Of a DNA stretch of 64,000 nucleotides, positions 2,631 through 12,615 are shown one piece after another. The first letter of the stretch is position 1. The number at the start of each line of letters is the position of its first letter. The DNA comes from Halorubrum vacuolatum. Lineage in GTDB: Archaea > Halobacteriota > Halobacteria > Halobacteriales > Haloferacaceae. The notes below the pieces were generated by a model. It had not been told where the DNA came from. It made no database searches and was given only the letters and a program-made list of their open reading frames with translations. The stretch spans positions 186,001-250,000 of the forward strand of contig NZ_FZNQ01000002.1 in the NCBI RefSeq assembly GCF_900188065.1. Reading direction: 5' to 3'. The position numbers and the translations under genes were made by a program.

Positions 2631-3326
2631 TTAACTCGTCGTCTCGGAAGGGACCGCTGCGACCGCGCGGATGGGTGCCCCGTCTCCGCCCACGATGGGC
2701 AGCGGAAAGGCATAGAACGTCCACCGCTCCGGGAGCGCATCGAGACCGGTCAGGTTCTCGATGATCGGCAGTTCGGCACCGAGGAGGGTGTGGTGGACCG
2801 GAAACCGGTCGGCTTCCGTTCCGTCCGTCGCCGATGGATCATCGCCTTGCGGCGTCGGGTCCGGATTCAACGTGTCGACGCCGAGTCCACAGCCGGCCGC
2901 ACGGAGCAACCGCGCGGCATCGGCCGTCAGGTAGGGGTGATCGACGTACTCAGGCGTGTCCCACCGCGTATCCCAGCCGGTTCGGCAGACGATGAGGTCA
3001 ACCGTATCGTCGATCCGGTCCGGCAGCTGCTCCGGACCGATCGCTTCCCGCGGGCTGCAGGGCGTCACGTCGACGAGCTGGGTTTCGAACACGTAATCGC
3101 TTACCGGCCGATCGGTGACATCCTGGCCAGCCGGCACCACATGACTTGGGGCATCGATGTGCGTTCCGGTGTGCGTCCCACAGCAGAGTGAATGGACGGC
3201 GAATCCGTCCGACTCGACCGTTGAAACGCGTGAAACGGTCACTTCGGGGTCGCCGGGAAACGTCGTCATCCCAGTCTCGATCGGCCACGAAAGGTCGATA
3301 TACGACCGCGGATCCTCGGGCGGCAT
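2631..3326 (-). CDS. cyclase/kynurenine-formamidase-like metal hydrolase
   Basis: 231 residues from the ATG at 3326. The signature of the cyclase family (PF04199-type) is present: IDLSWPIETGMTTFPGDP near the N-terminus and the metal-binding HxGTHxDAPxH motif seen as GTHTGTHIDAPSH, followed by DLIVCRTGWDTRW and a late conserved His/Glu region (VHHTLLGAELPIIENL). Members hydrolyse amides or lactones such as N-formylkynurenine or polyketide rings using Zn or Mn. A GTG at 3338 is also in frame, but TTTATCC at 3348-3356 sits about 26 bases ahead of the ATG, favouring 3326. No tryptophan-degradation gene is nearby, so the substrate is open. Confidence 0.87.
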   Translation of the reverse strand: MPPEDPRSYIDLSWPIETGMTTFPGDPEVTVSRVSTVESDGFAVHSLCCGTHTGTHIDAPSHVVPAGQDVTDRPVSDYVFETQLVDVTPCSPREAIGPEQLPDRIDDTVDLIVCRTGWDTRWDTPEYVDHPYLTADAARLLRAAGCGLGVDTLNPDPTPQGDDPSATDGTEADRFPVHHTLLGAELPIIENLTGLDALPERWTFYAFPLPIVGGDGAPIRAVAAVPSETTS

Positions 3327-3347
3327 GGTCAATGACACGACATGGCG

Positions 3348-3356
3348 GGATAAAGC
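3348..3356 (-). promoter_or_regulatory. TATA box of the cyclase gene
   Basis: Minus-strand GCTTTATCC, centred about 26 bases before the ATG at 3326; consistent with leaderless transcription and used to choose that start. Confidence 0.5.
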
Positions 3357-3570
3357 GTTCTCCGTCGTTCGAATCGACCCGACTCGGTCGGCTCCAGCGC
3401 TCTGGGCTGTTCTTGGGCGCCAACATCGAACAATCCGCCGTTGAGAGACGGAGCCGCGGCTTCAAGGAGCGAGGCCACGAGGCCGAGCGACGAAGGAAGG
3501 GGCCGGTTACGGTTGAAGCCACGATCCTTCCGCGAGTTATCCTCGTGATCCGAGGGGAAACGCGGCTCCC

Positions 3571-3625
3571 CCGCTCTGAGACCACCGTCGACGACGAGAT
3601 CGTGGCCAGTCACATATGAGGGATC
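3571..3625 (-). pseudogene. 3'-end fragment of a short-chain dehydrogenase gene
   Basis: The minus strand just behind the DUF35 gene encodes DPSYVTGHDLVVDGGLRAG in one frame. This is the canonical C-terminal signature of short-chain dehydrogenases/reductases (S-x-YVTG-x-x-xxVDGG), but the preceding 230 or so residues are missing: directly upstream in this frame lies the end of the DUF35 gene. What follows, down to about 3339, shows no further homology that I recognise. The rest of the 3339-3651 gap is otherwise without a gene. Reading: a remnant left when an SDR gene next to the thiolase/DUF35 pair was lost by deletion. SDR (3-ketoacyl-CoA/ACP reductase type) genes are common neighbours of thiolases. 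Confidence 0.6.
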
Positions 3626-3651
3626 CCGACTCGCATCCGTCCGCGTCTCGA

Positions 3652-4065
3652 TCACGCCGGTCGGAAGACGACCATCCGCTCGTCGTCCGTCTCGCGACGC
3701 TCAACACCCACGGTTACATCGAGCCCGAGGTCGATCACGTCGTCATCGGGCTCGACACCTCGGAGCACGCCGGTAAGCCGGATCGGGCCGAACGACGCGA
3801 TCGCGGTCACATACGGCGCGTCCTCGGCGAAGGTCGGCGTCGGGACGGACACGACGGTGAACGTCTCCACCGTTCCCGTCTCGGGAAGCGGTCGCTCGGT
3901 AAGGTCGGTTGAGCCGCACTCCGGACAGACACGCCGAGGTGGCAACGATCCGTGGCCGCACGGCGATTCGAGATAGTACCCCTCGCCGGCGTCGAGCGCG
4001 TCGATCCATGCGTCGAACCCCGTGCGGGTGGCCTCGTCCGCGCCCTCCGCATTCGAGCCGCTCAT
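3652..4065 (-). CDS. DUF35 zinc-ribbon/OB-fold acyl-CoA-associated protein
   Basis: 137 residues. An N-terminal helix (GFDAWIDALDAGEGYYLESP) leads into a rubredoxin-like zinc ribbon with CGHG and CPEC cysteines, then an OB-fold half starting at GTVETFTVVSVPTPTF and ending near the C-terminus. This is the standard layout of DUF35 proteins, which accompany archaeal thiolases and bring thiolase and HMG-CoA synthase together in known complexes. Its ATG overlaps the thiolase stop codon (ATGA at 4062-4065), so the two are surely co-transcribed and probably translationally coupled. The second cysteine pair is complete and the first has Cys-Gly-His, so one ligand may be His. Function inferred: partner subunit of the thiolase. 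Confidence 0.88.
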   Translation of the reverse strand: MSGSNAEGADEATRTGFDAWIDALDAGEGYYLESPCGHGSLPPRRVCPECGSTDLTERPLPETGTVETFTVVSVPTPTFAEDAPYVTAIASFGPIRLTGVLRGVEPDDDVIDLGLDVTVGVERRETDDERMVVFRPA

Positions 4066-5228
4066 TCGGCCACCTCCAGCACGTGGACGACCGCGCTCGC
4101 GACGGTGCCCCCCGCGTTGTGTGCGATGGCCGTCGTCGCGTCGTCGACGTGCTCGCTGTTCGGGTGGTCCCCCCGGAGCAGCCGAACCAGCTCCGCGATC
4201 TGTGCCGCGCCGGTCGCGCCGACCGGATGGCCCTTCGCTTTGAGGCCGCCCGAGAGGTTCACCGGGAGGTCGCCGTCGGCGGTCGTGAACCCCTCGCGGG
4301 CCGCACGGATTCCCTCGCCGGGCGCCGCGAAGCCGAGCGACTCGATCGCCAACACCTCCGCGATGGTGAAACAGTCGTGGACCTCCGCACAGTCCACGTC
4401 CTCCGGGCCGATACCGGCCTCCTCGTAGGCGGCGGTCGCCGCGTCGCGGGCGGCGGGCGTCTCCGTGAGCGATTCGCGATCGCCGAGCGCCATCCTATCG
4501 GTTCCCTGCCCGGTCCCGGTCACCGCCACAGGAGCATCGAGGCCGTGTTCCTCGGCGTACGCCTCCGAAACGATGACGACGGCGCTCGCCCCGTCGGTGA
4601 TGGGACAGGCGTCGAAGAGATGGAGCGGGGTCGCGACGGGCGGGGAGTCCAGCGCCTCCTCGACGGTTATCTCGCGTCGGTACTGCGCGTACTCGTTGTC
4701 GACCGCGTTCGCGTGGTTCTTCGAGGCGATGTGTGCGAGGTCGGTTCGGTCGCCCCCGAAGGCGTCGAAGTATGCGCGCGCCATCAGTGCGTACGCACCG
4801 GGAAACGTCACGCCCGAGCGGACCTCGAAGAGGTCGTCCGCGGCGGTCGCCAGCCCACGGGTCGTCGTCGGGGTGTCGACGTGCGTCATCCGTTCCATTC
4901 CACCGGCGAGTACGACGTCCGCCTCCCCACTACGAACGGTCCGAACGGCCTCACGGACGGCGACACCGGCCGAGGCACACGCCTCCTCGTAGCGGGTCGC
5001 CGGACAGCGGAGCCCGGCGGCCTCCGCCATCAGCGGCGCCTGGTGGCCCTGGCCCTCGGCGAGCGCGCCGATGAAGTTGCCGTAGTTGAGCCCCTCGACG
5101 TCCGCACGCGGTACTTCGGCGTCCTCGAACGCCCGAAGCGCCGCCTCGGCGAAGAGATCCCGTCCCGTTCGATCCGGGTGACGGCCGAAGCGGGTGAGTC
5201 CGACACCGGCGATCCGAACCTCGGTCAT
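4062..5228 (-). CDS. thiolase-family acetyl-CoA acyltransferase
   Basis: 388 residues from MTEVRIAGVG. Key catalytic elements: Cys84 in YEEACASAG (nucleophile), HDCFTIAEV (the NHDAF-type His), and GGLKAKGHPVGATGAAQ (second His and the C-terminal Cys/Gly region of the SCP-x/archaeal thiolase class). Members condense or cleave acyl-CoAs; with a DUF35 partner it is of the archaeal acetyl-CoA acetyltransferase type. Several further in-frame residues precede this start, but TATA-like TTAAATCGG (minus strand, about 5258) fits 5228. First gene of a two-gene operon with DUF35, and a decayed SDR lies behind them. Whether it serves the mevalonate pathway or fatty-acid-like degradation cannot be decided here; the acyl-CoA dehydrogenase at 9386 is a plausible pathway mate. 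Confidence 0.92.
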   Translation of the reverse strand: MTEVRIAGVGLTRFGRHPDRTGRDLFAEAALRAFEDAEVPRADVEGLNYGNFIGALAEGQGHQAPLMAEAAGLRCPATRYEEACASAGVAVREAVRTVRSGEADVVLAGGMERMTHVDTPTTTRGLATAADDLFEVRSGVTFPGAYALMARAYFDAFGGDRTDLAHIASKNHANAVDNEYAQYRREITVEEALDSPPVATPLHLFDACPITDGASAVVIVSEAYAEEHGLDAPVAVTGTGQGTDRMALGDRESLTETPAARDAATAAYEEAGIGPEDVDCAEVHDCFTIAEVLAIESLGFAAPGEGIRAAREGFTTADGDLPVNLSGGLKAKGHPVGATGAAQIAELVRLLRGDHPNSEHVDDATTAIAHNAGGTVASAVVHVLEVAE

Positions 5229-5230
5229 AC

Positions 5231-5245
5231 ACGATCGTTGATCGT
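5231..5245. repeat. short palindrome at the thiolase transcription start
   Basis: ACGATC-gtt-GATCGT, a perfect 6-base inverted repeat with a 3-base centre lying between the thiolase TATA-like box and its ATG. Position would suit a repressor operator. Short enough that chance is possible. Confidence 0.3.
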
Positions 5246-5334
5246 CGACCCGATTTAGCTGTACCGGAGCGGGTGGTTTCGGCGGTTCCAAAGCAATATG
5301 CACGCTACGCGTCCGACGCAGTTCAAAGACCGTC

Positions 5335-6087
5335 TCACCCGATATACCGAAGCTCGTCGTCGGGGACGCTCGGGCCCTCCTGCATCTCGCGGATCTTCCC
5401 GATCACCTCCTCCATCTCCTCGGCGCGGTCCTCCAAGCTGGCGTAATCGACCTCGAAATCGAGCAGCGATTCGAGCGTCTCAAGCACCGCCCGGGCGCTT
5501 TTGGGGTCGACGAGGTAGCCGCTGGTCTCGCCCATCAGACACGCCGCCTCGAAGCCGCGGCGACCGCCAAGCCCGAGGATCAGTCCGGAGACGCCGACGA
5601 TCCCCCCGGCCGGTTCGTCCGGACGGAACTCGACGTCCGCCTCCTCCAGTTCCTCGATAAGCGTCGCGTCCGTGACCGCGCCGAGGACGGTATACTCCTC
5701 GATGAGCTCACCGGTAGGGACGCCCCCAAGTGCGAACGCCCGGGTCGCCCCGAACTCCTCGGCGACATCGAGAAACGCCGAGGTGAGCCGATAGTGCCCC
5801 TCGTTCGTGCCCGCCTGATGATCGCCGGTCAACACGAGGAGATCCGTGCCGTCCGTCTCGACGGCGTGAAACTCCGCGCAGGTCAACTCGCCGACGCCAT
5901 CCCCGTCGACGTTCACCTGCGGCGGGAACGCCGTCGAGTGGACCCGTCGGACGAGCTCCCCGTCGAACTCCTCGAGGAGGTGTTCTGCGGCGAGTTTTCC
6001 CACGTGGCCGACACCCGGAAGCCCCTCGATGAGTACGGGTTCCGAGAGCGTCGGCGTTGCGACCTCGTCGATCTCGATGTCGTTCAT
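5335..6087 (-). CDS. PAC2 / proteasome-assembly-chaperone-family protein (paralogue 1)
   Basis: 250 residues. It opens with LSEPVLIEGLPGVGHVGKLAAEHLLE, the glycine-rich signature of the archaeal PAC2 (COG2047-type) family, and continues with LLVLTGDHQ, ALGGVPTG and the GGIVGVSGLILGLG and ACLMGETSGY segments; the last 40 residues are a charged helix (SLEDRAEEMEEVIGKIREM). PAC2 proteins are homologous to a eukaryotic 20S proteasome assembly chaperone subunit; in archaea the role is not settled. Single gene between the thiolase (same direction, downstream) and the divergent cysteine synthase. A second PAC2 gene with the same N-terminal signature lies at 24576-25313. Confidence 0.88.
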   Translation of the reverse strand: MNDIEIDEVATPTLSEPVLIEGLPGVGHVGKLAAEHLLEEFDGELVRRVHSTAFPPQVNVDGDGVGELTCAEFHAVETDGTDLLVLTGDHQAGTNEGHYRLTSAFLDVAEEFGATRAFALGGVPTGELIEEYTVLGAVTDATLIEELEEADVEFRPDEPAGGIVGVSGLILGLGGRRGFEAACLMGETSGYLVDPKSARAVLETLESLLDFEVDYASLEDRAEEMEEVIGKIREMQEGPSVPDDELRYIG

Positions 6088-7145: not shown

Positions 7146-7241
7146 GATATCCGTAATTGAGGCCGGCAAAATCGGACCAGATCACTTCAGTACCACAACA
7201 ATAATTATCGTTCATGTTGAAATCGGGACGGGTTACGTTCC

Positions 7242-8048
7242 ATGGTCAACGCCGACATCCACGTCCTCGATCGGGGTGCACTGAAATGCGACTACAACTA
7301 CATGATGGAGGGGCACGTCCTCGCGACGTACGACGAGCAGAATCCCGATACCGACTATTCGGAGATCCCCGTCTGGAGCCTCGTCATTGACCATCCGGAG
7401 GGGACGATCCTCTGGGACACCGGTTCCCACCACGACGCCCTCGACGGGCACTGGCCGGAGGGACTCTCACAGGCGTTCTATCCCTACGACGCCCACGAGC
7501 ACCGTCTCGATGACGACCTCGAAGCGGCGGGATTCGGTATCGACGACATCGATTACGTCTTTCAGACGCACCTGCATCTCGACCACGCAGGCGGGCTGGA
7601 GTTCTTCGATGGAACCGACGTGCCCGTGTTCGTCCACGAACGGGAGATCAAGTTCGCGTATTACAGCGCGAACACGCCGAAAGGAAGCGGGGCGTACATC
7701 CTCGACGATTTCGATCACGACCTCAATTGGCAGATCCTGCACGCCGACCGTGAACAACACTTCACCGACGTTGAATTCATCCGTTTCCCGGGTCATACGC
7801 CAGGGCTCACCGGAACGATGATCCACCTCGACGATCACGGCACGGTGATCTTCACCGGCGACCAGGTCTATATGACCGACAACCTCGAACACGAGATCCC
7901 GCTCGGCGCGCCGTTGATCTGGGGAAAGACCGAATGGTTCGACAGCCTCCAGCGGATCAAAGAGCTTCAACGACGGTATGAGGCCGAGGTCGTCGTCGGA
8001 CACGACCCCGAACAGTTCGAGACGATACGCGAGGGGTGGGTCTCGTGA
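7242..8048 (+). CDS. AttM/AiiA-like metallo-beta-lactamase lactonase
   Basis: 268 residues, metallo-beta-lactamase fold. The di-zinc motif HxHxDH is His110-Leu-His112-Leu-Asp114-His115; further ligands are His in FPGHTPG, Asp in TGDQVY and His in VVGHDPE. Unlike generic MBL proteins it starts with HVLDRGALKCDYN and carries LNWQIL before the third ligand, which I recall as matching the N-acyl-homoserine lactonase AttM (BlcC) of Agrobacterium, an enzyme that opens both homoserine lactones and gamma-butyrolactone. Its stop overlaps the GTG of the Fe-ADH gene (GTGA), so the two form a coupled operon. That partner fits lactone catabolism better than quorum quenching. Confidence 0.88.
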   Translation: MVNADIHVLDRGALKCDYNYMMEGHVLATYDEQNPDTDYSEIPVWSLVIDHPEGTILWDTGSHHDALDGHWPEGLSQAFYPYDAHEHRLDDDLEAAGFGIDDIDYVFQTHLHLDHAGGLEFFDGTDVPVFVHEREIKFAYYSANTPKGSGAYILDDFDHDLNWQILHADREQHFTDVEFIRFPGHTPGLTGTMIHLDDHGTVIFTGDQVYMTDNLEHEIPLGAPLIWGKTEWFDSLQRIKELQRRYEAEVVVGHDPEQFETIREGWVS

Positions 8049-9358
8049 GCTACGACCGATCGGTTTCAGCCCCCGAGCGTGAGCTCTCCCCGGAGACGGT
8101 CTGGCACATCCAGATGCCCGAGATCCGCTTTGGGCGGGATTCGATCGAGGAACTGGGCTATCAACTCCGCGACAGCGGTGTCGATCGGGGCGCGGAGGGA
8201 CTGATCGTTACCGACGAGACGCTCGTCGAGATCGGCCACGTGTCACGGGTCTCCGACGAACTCGAAGCGGCCGGTCTCGCGGTCGACGTTTGGGACGGGA
8301 CCGAACGCGAACCCTCGATCGCGAACGTCGACGCCTGTATCGAATTCGTTCGCGACCGAGCCGGAGATGACGGCTATGAGTTCTATATCGGGCTCGGCGG
8401 CGGCAGTTGTATGGACGTCGCAAAGGGTACCCGAACCATCGTCGCCAACGGCGGGGAGGTGCTCGATTATGTCGCGGAGCCGACCGGTGAGGGGAAACCG
8501 CTCACCGAGCGGGGCGCGCCGTTGGTGTTGCTCCCGACGACGGCGGGCACGGGCTCGGAGATCTCCCCCGTTGGGATCTACTCCGTCGAGGAGAAGAACA
8601 TCAAGGAGGGGATCTCCAGCAACCACATCCGGGCCGATGCGGCGATCCTCGATCCGACCCTGACGACGACGCTGCCGCCCGAAATAACGGCGAAGACCGC
8701 CATGGACGCGCTTGGGCACGCGATCGAGGGCTACACGACCCATCCGCATACGAGCCTGCTTCGGGCGAGCAACCCCGCCTCTCGCCCTGTGTATGCGGGT
8801 CGCACCGCGCTCACCGAGATGTTCAGCGAGAAGGCGATAGAGCTGTTGTCCGGTAACGTTCGTCGGGCGGTACATAACGGCGACGACCTCGAAGCACGTG
8901 GAAACATGCTTCAAGGGGCGCTCTTCGGGGCGATCGCGGGGCTCACCGCCGGTGCGAGCCTCTGTCACGCGATGGCGTATCCCGTCGGAAATCGGTATCA
9001 TACCTACCACGGCGAGACGATCGCGGTGTTAACCCCCGCCAGCACGCTCGGATACAACGTCGCCAGCGAACCCGAGCGTTTCGTCCGTGTCGCCGAGATG
9101 CTCGGAGCCGACACGTCGGGACACAGCACCCGTGAGGCGGCTGATCTGGCGCGTGAGGAGTATGTCCGACTCCAGCGGGATCTCAACGTCCTACCGAGCG
9201 GACTCGCGGAACTCGTCGATATCGACGAGGAGGCGATCGACTGGCTCGCCCAACAGACGGTCGACACCCAACAGCGTCTCCTTCGGTGCAACCCGAGACC
9301 GGTGACGAAAGCGGACGTCGTCGGCATCTTCGAGGACGCGCTCTTCAACTGGGAGTGA
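8045..9358 (+). CDS. iron-containing alcohol dehydrogenase (4-hydroxybutyrate dehydrogenase/HOT-like)
   Basis: 437 residues from the GTG at 8045, which overlaps the lactonase stop. Group III (iron) ADH motifs: IGLGGGSCMDVAKG (NAD-binding), PTTAGTGSE, MDALGHAIEGY and LCHAMAYPVGNRYHTYHG, which together give the Asp/His metal ligands. The large size and the PTTAGTGSEISPVGIYS and SCMD phrases resemble hydroxyacid-oxoacid transhydrogenase and 4-hydroxybutyrate dehydrogenases such as AttL/BlcB. Predicted reaction: oxidation of the 4-hydroxybutyrate released by the upstream lactonase to succinate semialdehyde. No semialdehyde dehydrogenase (AttK-like) follows; the next gene is convergent. Confidence 0.9.
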   Translation: MSYDRSVSAPERELSPETVWHIQMPEIRFGRDSIEELGYQLRDSGVDRGAEGLIVTDETLVEIGHVSRVSDELEAAGLAVDVWDGTEREPSIANVDACIEFVRDRAGDDGYEFYIGLGGGSCMDVAKGTRTIVANGGEVLDYVAEPTGEGKPLTERGAPLVLLPTTAGTGSEISPVGIYSVEEKNIKEGISSNHIRADAAILDPTLTTTLPPEITAKTAMDALGHAIEGYTTHPHTSLLRASNPASRPVYAGRTALTEMFSEKAIELLSGNVRRAVHNGDDLEARGNMLQGALFGAIAGLTAGASLCHAMAYPVGNRYHTYHGETIAVLTPASTLGYNVASEPERFVRVAEMLGADTSGHSTREAADLAREEYVRLQRDLNVLPSGLAELVDIDEEAIDWLAQQTVDTQQRLLRCNPRPVTKADVVGIFEDALFNWE

Positions 9359-10614: not shown

Positions 10615-12615
10615 TCAGGTCGATTCGCCCCCGGATGGATCGGGCTCCGCGTCGTCCGCTCCCGTTGCGTCCTCCACCGCCGCATCTCCGGCTGCTTCTT
10701 CCGCCGCGACGGCGTCCGCATCGGACATCTCGCTGTCATCGTCGACCGGTTTCGGATCGACTGGCTCGAATCCAGCATCGCTGAAGCGATCTTCCGGATC
10801 ATCCGGGGGGGATCCGCGAGAAGTGAGGATCTCACGAACCGCCTCCCTATCGACCGTGCCGGAGACGGTTCGTGGAAGCTCGTCGATGTATGCGATCGTG
10901 CGGGGGATCTTGAATCCCGCGAGGTGTTCGCGAGCGAGTTCGAACAGCGCACGTTCATCGATCGCTTTCCCGGCGACGGCGTCCGGATCCCCGAACACGC
11001 CCTCTCCGATCGCCTCGTCCTCGCCGTCAGTATCGTCCTCTCGTCCCATCGTGTCCGCGCCTCCAGCGTCGTCCGCGCCGTCAGCGTCGTCCGCGCCGTC
11101 AGCGTCGTTCAGATCCTCTCCGGCGCGGCCCGTCTCATCGTCGTCGGGTTCACTTCGATCCGTTCGCGGTGTCGCGTCGGCGTCACCGCTTCGAGCGCGC
11201 TCATCGGGATCGATGGGACCGTCGACGGTATCCGCCCCATCCTCACCAACGAGATCAGTTCCGGTGTGCCCAGTAGTGCCCGGCCAGCGATCGCCGATCT
11301 CGATCAGGGCCGCCACCTGCTCGCCCCAGACATCGTCGGAAAGGCCAACCACGGCGACGTCGAGCACCTCCTCGTGGCGGCGAATGATCTCCGCAACCTC
11401 ACCAGGCTCGACGTTCTCGCCTCCCGTGATGATCCGGTCGTCGACCCGGTTGAGCACGTAGAGCTGTCCGTGTTCATCTATCCGCCCGCAGTCGCCGGTG
11501 TGGAGGCCGAACGGTCCGAAGGCCGCGTCGTTCGCTTCCGGGTCGTTATAATAGCCGGGCGTAATGGTCGGGCCGGAGACGACGAACTCACCCGACTCGC
11601 CGGGTTCGACCGGTGATCCGTCTTCATTGACCACGGTGACGTCGGTCCCGAATAACGGACGACCAACCGTTCCGAGGTGGTCGCGCGCCTGATCGGGGGT
11701 TGCCGTCGCGATCTGTGACGCCGACTCCGTCATGCCGTAGGTCGGATAGACCGGCACGGAGTAGTCGCGACAGCGCTCGATCAACTCGTCGGGTGCGGGA
11801 GCGCCCCCGAGCAACACGACGCGAAGCGAATCCGAAAGCGTCCCTCGGCTGTCGAGGGTTTGTTGGAGCATCGTCGGAACCATCGAGACGCCGGTCGCCT
11901 CGTATCGGGCGATGTCGTCGGCCACGCCGCCGGGATCGAACCCCTCACGCATGATGACGGTCGTACCGTACAGTACCGACCGATAGACGGGTGCGAGCCC
12001 GCCCATGTGATTGAGCGAGAGGGCGACGAGCCACCGATCCGTCGGATCCACCCCGAGCCTGAACCCGGAGGCGACCGCGGAGGCGTAGACGTTGCTGAGG
12101 GTAAGTTCGACTGCCTTCGGCTCGCCGCTCGTTCCGGAGGTGAAAAGCAGACAGAGTCGATCCGATCCGCTCCACGTCGGGGGGTCGATCTGAATCGGAT
12201 CGACACCGTGTACCGATCCCACTCCATCCTCGGCGGGCTCATCCACGGAAAGCACGGGAACGTCCCCGGCAGCGGCGACGGCTGCCGATTCCGTCTCTTC
12301 GGAACAGACGAGCACGGTGATGTCTGCGGCCTCGATCCGGTCGCGCAGCTCGTTTGGGGTGAGCCGTTCGCCGAACGGGACGAACGTCGCACCGAGTCGC
12401 ATCGACGCATGGACGAGGCCGACGGTGCCGACACAGGCTGGCATCAGCACGCCGAGATGATCCCCCGGTTCGATCCCGTGTGCGGCGAGCCGTCCGGTCG
12501 TCTCCGAGACGAGTCTGTCGAGGCCGTCGTACGTCCACGTCTCGCCGTCCTCCGCGCGGACGAGGGCTGGGTCACTCGGCGAGGAGACGACCCGGTGGGA
12601 GAGCCAGTCGCGCAT
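10615..12615 (-). CDS. menE: o-succinylbenzoate-CoA ligase-like acyl-CoA synthetase
   Basis: 666 residues, AMP-binding adenylate-forming enzyme. Motifs: LLFTSGTSGEPKAVELT (P-loop A3), PTYGMTESAS (A5), LHTGDCGRID (A7), VDDRIITGGENVEPGEV (A8) and the C-terminal lysine of LPRTVSGTVDREAV (A10 region). The N-terminus MRDWLSHR resembles haloarchaeal MenE proteins, which activate o-succinylbenzoate for menaquinone. The family is normally about 480-530 residues: the excess is an Asp/Gly/Ala-rich insertion of about 110 residues in the C-terminal domain (DGADDADGADDAGGAD repeats, encoded by 18-bp DNA repeats near 11063-11110) and a 65-residue acidic tail. Being followed by an acyl-CoA dehydrogenase, a fatty- or aromatic-acid CoA ligase is an alternative reading; menF lies 11 kb away. 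Confidence 0.85.
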   Translation of the reverse strand: MRDWLSHRVVSSPSDPALVRAEDGETWTYDGLDRLVSETTGRLAAHGIEPGDHLGVLMPACVGTVGLVHASMRLGATFVPFGERLTPNELRDRIEAADITVLVCSEETESAAVAAAGDVPVLSVDEPAEDGVGSVHGVDPIQIDPPTWSGSDRLCLLFTSGTSGEPKAVELTLSNVYASAVASGFRLGVDPTDRWLVALSLNHMGGLAPVYRSVLYGTTVIMREGFDPGGVADDIARYEATGVSMVPTMLQQTLDSRGTLSDSLRVVLLGGAPAPDELIERCRDYSVPVYPTYGMTESASQIATATPDQARDHLGTVGRPLFGTDVTVVNEDGSPVEPGESGEFVVSGPTITPGYYNDPEANDAAFGPFGLHTGDCGRIDEHGQLYVLNRVDDRIITGGENVEPGEVAEIIRRHEEVLDVAVVGLSDDVWGEQVAALIEIGDRWPGTTGHTGTDLVGEDGADTVDGPIDPDERARSGDADATPRTDRSEPDDDETGRAGEDLNDADGADDADGADDAGGADTMGREDDTDGEDEAIGEGVFGDPDAVAGKAIDERALFELAREHLAGFKIPRTIAYIDELPRTVSGTVDREAVREILTSRGSPPDDPEDRFSDAGFEPVDPKPVDDDSEMSDADAVAAEEAAGDAAVEDATGADDAEPDPSGGEST

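Follow-up and report, generated by a model that had tools for sequence, protein, structure and literature searches.

Gamma-butyrolactone is broken down in Agrobacterium fabrum by the products of the blcABC (attKLM) operon of plasmid pAtC58, in which a metallo-beta-lactamase-fold lactonase (BlcC, or AttM) and an iron alcohol dehydrogenase (ADH; BlcB) are encoded together, in the full set with an NAD-dependent succinate semialdehyde dehydrogenase (SSADH). The known route runs from the lactone via 4-hydroxybutyrate to succinate semialdehyde. The latter conversion is also carried out by animal hydroxyacid-oxoacid transhydrogenase (HOT), with 2-oxoglutarate (PMC5125639), and another member of that family, HPHD-1 of C. 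elegans, uses 2-oxoglutarate to oxidise 3-hydroxypropionate (PMC10096224). According to a 2016 survey, the activity of HOT proteins outside animals was unknown (PMC5125639).

We have analysed a lactonase gene and an iron-type ADH gene of the haloarchaeon Halorubrum vacuolatum, located in a stretch of 64,000 nucleotides (the window). A sequence-only reading had taken the pair as an archaeal analogue of attKLM/blc. The functional analogy finds support, and the same route is proposed here, but the AttM and BlcB family labels do not hold, and we regard the pair as a convergent variant of a known operon kind. The gene order is lactonase-ADH(-SSADH) instead of SSADH-ADH-lactonase, the enzyme subfamilies differ (28.5% identity for the lactonase and 31% for the ADH), and the window pair has neither an adjacent BlcR-type IclR regulator nor an SSADH. 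No description of this haloarchaeal lactonase-ADH pair was found in the literature searched (open-licence papers).

Gene layout and enzyme families

The features of the locus are as follows.

7200..7208, + strand: AT-rich TATA-like stretch, 34-42 bases 5' of the lactonase start (tentative)
7242..8048, + strand: metallo-beta-lactamase-fold lactonase, 268 aa, GcL/AaL/AhlS-like branch (open reading frame, Pfam, NCBIfam, PDB, Foldseek)
7569..7586, + strand: HLHLDH core of the lactonase active site, residues 110-115 (metal ligands invariant among relatives)
8045..8048, + strand: GTGA stop/start overlap of lactonase and ADH, 4 bases (recurs among relatives)
8045..9358, + strand: iron-type (type III) ADH, HOT-like, 437 aa from GTG 8045
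8741..8794, + strand: 18-residue insertion, ADH residues 233-250, between alpha5 and alpha6 at the first HOT insertion site (alignment, predicted helices)

Both genes encode real protein families, with Pfam E-values of 8e-18 for Lactamase_B in the lactonase, and of 6e-39 (Fe-ADH) and 8e-35 (ADH_Fe_C) in the ADH. The lactonase frame runs from ATG 7242 to TGA 8048, and residues 108-118 of the protein read QTHLHLDHAGG. The ADH frame is open already from GTG 8036; however, since a start at GTG 8045 gives the N-terminus MSYxRSVSA common to orthologues together with the stop overlap, the protein is taken as 437 residues ending at 9358. The 4-base overlap reported earlier was thereby confirmed, and the two genes would be co-transcribed. 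Many relatives have a GTGA or ATGA junction, while in others TGA directly abuts ATG or a gap of a few bases is found. The AT-rich stretch 5' of the lactonase could tentatively be its own promoter, and similar stretches were seen at a similar distance in many relatives (by inspection, without a statistical test).

Two other parts of the window may be mentioned. A MenE-like AMP-forming ligase of 666 aa (10615-12615, - strand) contains a long acidic low-complexity insertion that appears to split its C-terminal domain and is partly encoded by an 18-base tandem repeat (11015-11108, residues DADGADDADGADDAGGAD). Past the PAC2 and cysteine synthase genes, the - strand (2631-5303) encodes three consecutive proteins that together look like a cluster for acyl-CoA metabolism, namely a cyclase/arylformamidase-like one, a thiolase and, between them, a ChsH2-type OB-fold protein.

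The lactonase falls far below the cut-offs of all NCBIfam models that it matches. AhlS scored best (NF047976, 169 bits against a cut-off of 475), followed by AttM (NF045700, 116.4 bits against 390, a model on which BlcC itself reaches 486), AiiA (108 bits) and 4-pyridoxolactonase (100 bits). A sequence search of the PDB returned 6cgy (AaL) and GcL first, with AiiB and AiiA later, and the first ten Foldseek matches of the AlphaFold model (mean pLDDT 75, weak at 134-155) were all GcL and AaL, at about 31% identity. From this ranking, these matches and the low identity to BlcC, the enzyme is placed, by sequence and predicted fold, as a haloarchaeal lactonase nearest the GcL/AaL branch and not in AttM. 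It shares with GcL, AaL and AhlS full-length best matches in both searches, the HxHxDH motif and a catalytic tyrosine after the bridging aspartate, but differs by its low identity, its low AhlS score and its nearly constant pairing with an ADH in haloarchaea. The HxHxDH core noted earlier is present as HLHLDH, and the further His/Asp/His ligands and the tyrosine expected of a metallo-beta-lactamase-fold lactonase are in place: H110, H112, D114, H115, H185, D207, H254 and Y210 are invariant in 27 sequences (the window protein and 26 haloarchaeal relatives).

The ADH likewise exceeded no NCBIfam cut-off. Its best models were GbsB (244 bits), ErcA (209) and FucO (205), the 4-hydroxybutyrate dehydrogenase model coming sixth with 172 bits (NF058672, cut-off 500, on which BlcB itself reaches only 228). 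Its orthologues are named HOT in RefSeq. Members of HOT (ADHFE1, cd08190) are recognised by a 19-residue insertion between alpha5 and alpha6 and a 13-residue insertion between alpha8 and alpha9 (PMC5125639). In the structure model of the ADH (mean pLDDT 88) an 18-residue insertion (233-250) lies at the first site, between helices 212-231 and 255-277, whereas the second is absent, helices 306-318 and 322-329 being only 3 residues apart and the alignment, made without a eukaryotic HOT since the PDB matches included none, showing no gap. The iron ligands D221, H225, H308 and H322 and the GGGS motif at 118-121 agree with HOT and are invariant in 32 sequences.

In a small tree the haloarchaeal ADH clade of the pair (100/100) was joined by a second haloarchaeal group of HOT-named proteins (94/88) and then by a HOT-named Peribacillus protein, with BlcB and FucO on the other side of a deep split (84/89, below the starred level, with several long branches). 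Because the first insertion is present and the second absent, and the deep split is unstarred, we call the enzyme HOT-like, as judged from alignment and model, and not a proven HOT. D57, which follows the first nucleotide-binding strand and is invariant among the ADH sequences, fits NAD(H) by the rule of PMC5125639, the position having been matched by eye with human ADHFE1 outside the alignment. The earlier placement of the ADH in the BlcB/hydroxybutyrate-dehydrogenase group is thus contradicted by the profile scores, the orthologue names and the tree, the last with its unstarred split. The best homologues of both proteins lie outside the groups first assigned to them.

Conservation of the pair and of a third gene

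The linkage was surveyed in 392 genomes of the order, with identity thresholds of at least 65% for the lactonase and at least 66% for the ADH. The lactonase occurred in 63 genomes, the ADH in 72 and both in 59, compared with about 12 expected if the genes were independent (63 x 72 / 392). In all 59 the two genes are adjacent, in tandem and on one strand, and chance pairing is therefore excluded; the conserved pairing in other haloarchaea that the earlier reading had called for was found. Pairwise distances of lactonases and ADHs correlate with r = 0.84 (39 lactonases, one of them a distant paralogue), and the flanking genes differ between lineages. The window pair is closer to some Natrialbaceae (82% for the lactonase, 79% for the ADH) than to other Halorubrum (about 75%), which suggests transfer of the pair. 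With regard to viral spread, the lactonase had no match in viral contigs.

Conserved flanking genes were considered and rejected: the candidate clusters c2-c4 turned out to be ribosomal-protein genes (L1 and L10 identified) in a single family (f7, Natrialbaceae), and a TctA-type transporter (c5) beside them is limited to the same family.

Four genomes have the lactonase alone, and 13 have the ADH without it, so the ADH must have uses of its own. In one of the four (L091 of G175, 4280-5314) the lactonase is followed by a 77-residue N-terminal ADH remnant, a decayed pair. In another locus (L108 of G156), among CoA ligase genes, the ADH match is split into two parts that overlap and the lactonase match is shortened; this copy of the pair seems to be broken or duplicated. 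Halospeciosus flavus (L144) and Halorientalis marina (L165) have the ADH without the usual lactonase in front, and 3' of it an opposite-strand CoA ligase and, a few kb on, a lactonase that is a distant paralogue (55%) and looks like a replacement for the partner. A plasmid of Halocatena salina (L181) carries a 56% paralogous lactonase amid beta-oxidation genes (acyl-CoA dehydrogenase, enoyl-CoA hydratase and fatty acid-CoA ligase). On plasmid 2 of Natronococcus occultus (L122), the pair is preceded on its own strand, at a distance of 385 bases, by a TIGR00366-family gene (4146-5615); this family is associated with short-chain fatty acid transport, and the gene is a possible uptake partner.

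The sequence-only reading had stated that an AttK-type dehydrogenase is missing. This is correct for the window, where no SSADH adjoins the pair and convergent acyl-CoA dehydrogenase and AMP-ligase genes lie downstream, but not for three relatives (Halobacterium hubeiense pSTJ001; Halolamina salifodinae, G376; and G183), in which an SSADH follows the ADH by about 20-25 bp, completing a lactonase, Fe-ADH and SSADH cluster (L119/L096, L110/L149 and L089). The order on pSTJ001 is AMP-binding ligase, hypothetical protein, lactonase, ADH and NAD-dependent SSADH (the SSADH of L096 from RefSeq annotation). Since the ADHs of Halobacterium and Halolamina group as sisters (100/99) with short branches, the SSADH-bearing operons of the three genomes probably share one origin and have moved between families. 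Elsewhere in the window genome, three SSADH-like aldehyde dehydrogenases are encoded, all under the SSADH cut-off. Co-occurrence of SSADH was uninformative as a wider test, because the H. hubeiense type is present in 247 of the 392 genomes; at that threshold it is absent from the window genome.

Proposed function and alternatives

We consider it somewhat probable that the pair is a two-gene catabolic cassette that converts gamma-butyrolactone to 4-hydroxybutyrate and succinate semialdehyde, and from there to succinate. The substrate of the lactonase would be a small lactone, with gamma-butyrolactone as the most likely candidate, and hydrolysis would give the corresponding gamma-hydroxy acid, here 4-hydroxybutyrate, whose terminal alcohol the HOT-like ADH would oxidise to succinate semialdehyde. 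The hydride would pass to 2-oxoglutarate, yielding D-2-hydroxyglutarate in a transhydrogenase reaction, or free NAD+ would be used instead. An aldehyde dehydrogenase, next to the pair in some relatives and elsewhere in this genome, would then form succinate.

Lactone opening followed by hydroxy-acid oxidation, as read earlier from the sequence, is supported by the conserved linkage and by the SSADH 3' of the pair in three relatives. AaL, the top PDB sequence match of the lactonase, hydrolyses gamma-butyrolactone with a kcat/KM of 1.4e5 per M per s (PMC6062542), and Haloferax mediterranei fed gamma-butyrolactone makes a 4HB-containing polymer (PMC7137286), so haloarchaea can open this lactone. 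Taken together with animal HOT and HPHD-1, these analogies support a sequence from lactone to hydroxy acid to semialdehyde, C4 being the most likely. Against it stand the SSADH linkage in only three genomes, with operons probably of one origin, the sub-threshold aldehyde dehydrogenases of the window genome, the 13 genomes that have the ADH but not this lactonase, the missing second HOT insertion, and the preference of AaL for delta-valerolactone. The stricter form, in which the ADH of this C4 module is a true transhydrogenase that gives its hydride to 2-oxoglutarate and consumes no free NAD+, is tentative and rather doubtful. Three FAD-oxidase_C proteins are encoded in the window genome and could act as 2-hydroxyglutarate recyclers. 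Supply of polyhydroxyalkanoate (PHA) monomers was considered as a role and rejected: a PHA synthase model matches 228 of the 392 genomes and 35 of the 59 pair-bearing ones (hand count), which is an equal proportion, and nothing in the window genome.

Among the alternatives, a C5 version, with delta-valerolactone opened to 5-hydroxyvalerate and oxidised to glutarate semialdehyde as in cyclopentanone-type degradation, is unlikely. SSADH-like enzymes could oxidise the C5 semialdehyde. The kcat/KM of AaL is 4.5e5 on delta-valerolactone (PMC6062542), higher than on gamma-butyrolactone, and the Fe-ADHs include a 5-hydroxyvalerate dehydrogenase subfamily (PMC5125639); however, no Baeyer-Villiger monooxygenase or cyclopentanol genes were recognised among the neighbours examined, and a match to a C5-specific model was not obtained.

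Quite unlikely, too, is that the pair acts on longer gamma- or delta-lactones, with additional activation of the resulting hydroxy acids to CoA esters, as by the lactonase QsdA and the CoA ligase QsdC of the Rhodococcus qsd gamma-lactone pathway. QsdA belongs to a different lactonase family from the enzyme of the haloarchaeal pair. The likeness consists in CoA ligases near the lactonase in several haloarchaeal loci: in about ten genera AMP-forming ligases lie close to the pair or to the ADH, as they do in the window, although the window genome has only 5 strong PF00501 matches, and the related lactonase of Halocatena salina adjoins an acyl-CoA dehydrogenase and a fatty acid-CoA ligase, as in the window. 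The precedent is described in PMC6476934, where an ADH lies outside the qsd core. The haloarchaeal ligases, on the other hand, are of several subfamilies and mostly on the opposite strand, their recurrence is a count without a formal enrichment test, and such lactones open to secondary alcohols, which are less typical for Fe-ADHs.

That the lactonase serves quorum quenching by degrading acyl-homoserine lactones (AHLs), with the opened acyl-homoserine or some unrelated alcohol as the substrate of the ADH, appears very unlikely. The characterised enzymes nearest to the lactonase (GcL, AaL and AiiA) are AHL lactonases, and RefSeq places its orthologues in the N-acyl homoserine lactonase family, but these names are similarity-based, all NCBIfam AHL lactonase cut-offs were missed, and the near-obligate pairing with an ADH of hydroxy-acid type, with an SSADH in relatives, points to carbon catabolism. 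AHL hydrolysis is, judging from sequence, possible as a side activity, and naming these haloarchaeal genes N-acyl homoserine lactonases may be misleading. Metabolite repair, in which the pair would clear side-product lactones or hydroxy acids, e.g. from 4-hydroxybutyrate or from 2-hydroxyglutarate (the HOT-made D-form of which is treated as a repair case in animals, PMC7041631), is highly improbable, the patchy distribution and the occurrence on plasmids fitting accessory catabolism better than housekeeping.

Implications for archaeal HOT-like enzymes

In the proposed C4 cassette, the functional kind is known from blcABC; the pair differs from that operon in its subfamilies and gene order, in belonging to another domain of life and in being widely conserved. 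It suggests that lactone catabolism has been put together in archaea from other subfamilies than in Agrobacterium. For the archaeal HOT members, a lactonase partner that is conserved and in some genomes linked to an SSADH points to a definite class of substrates that can be tested. Should the ADH be a true transhydrogenase, this would be the first physiological role of a HOT-type iron ADH in a non-animal, and the module would have arisen independently of blcABC.
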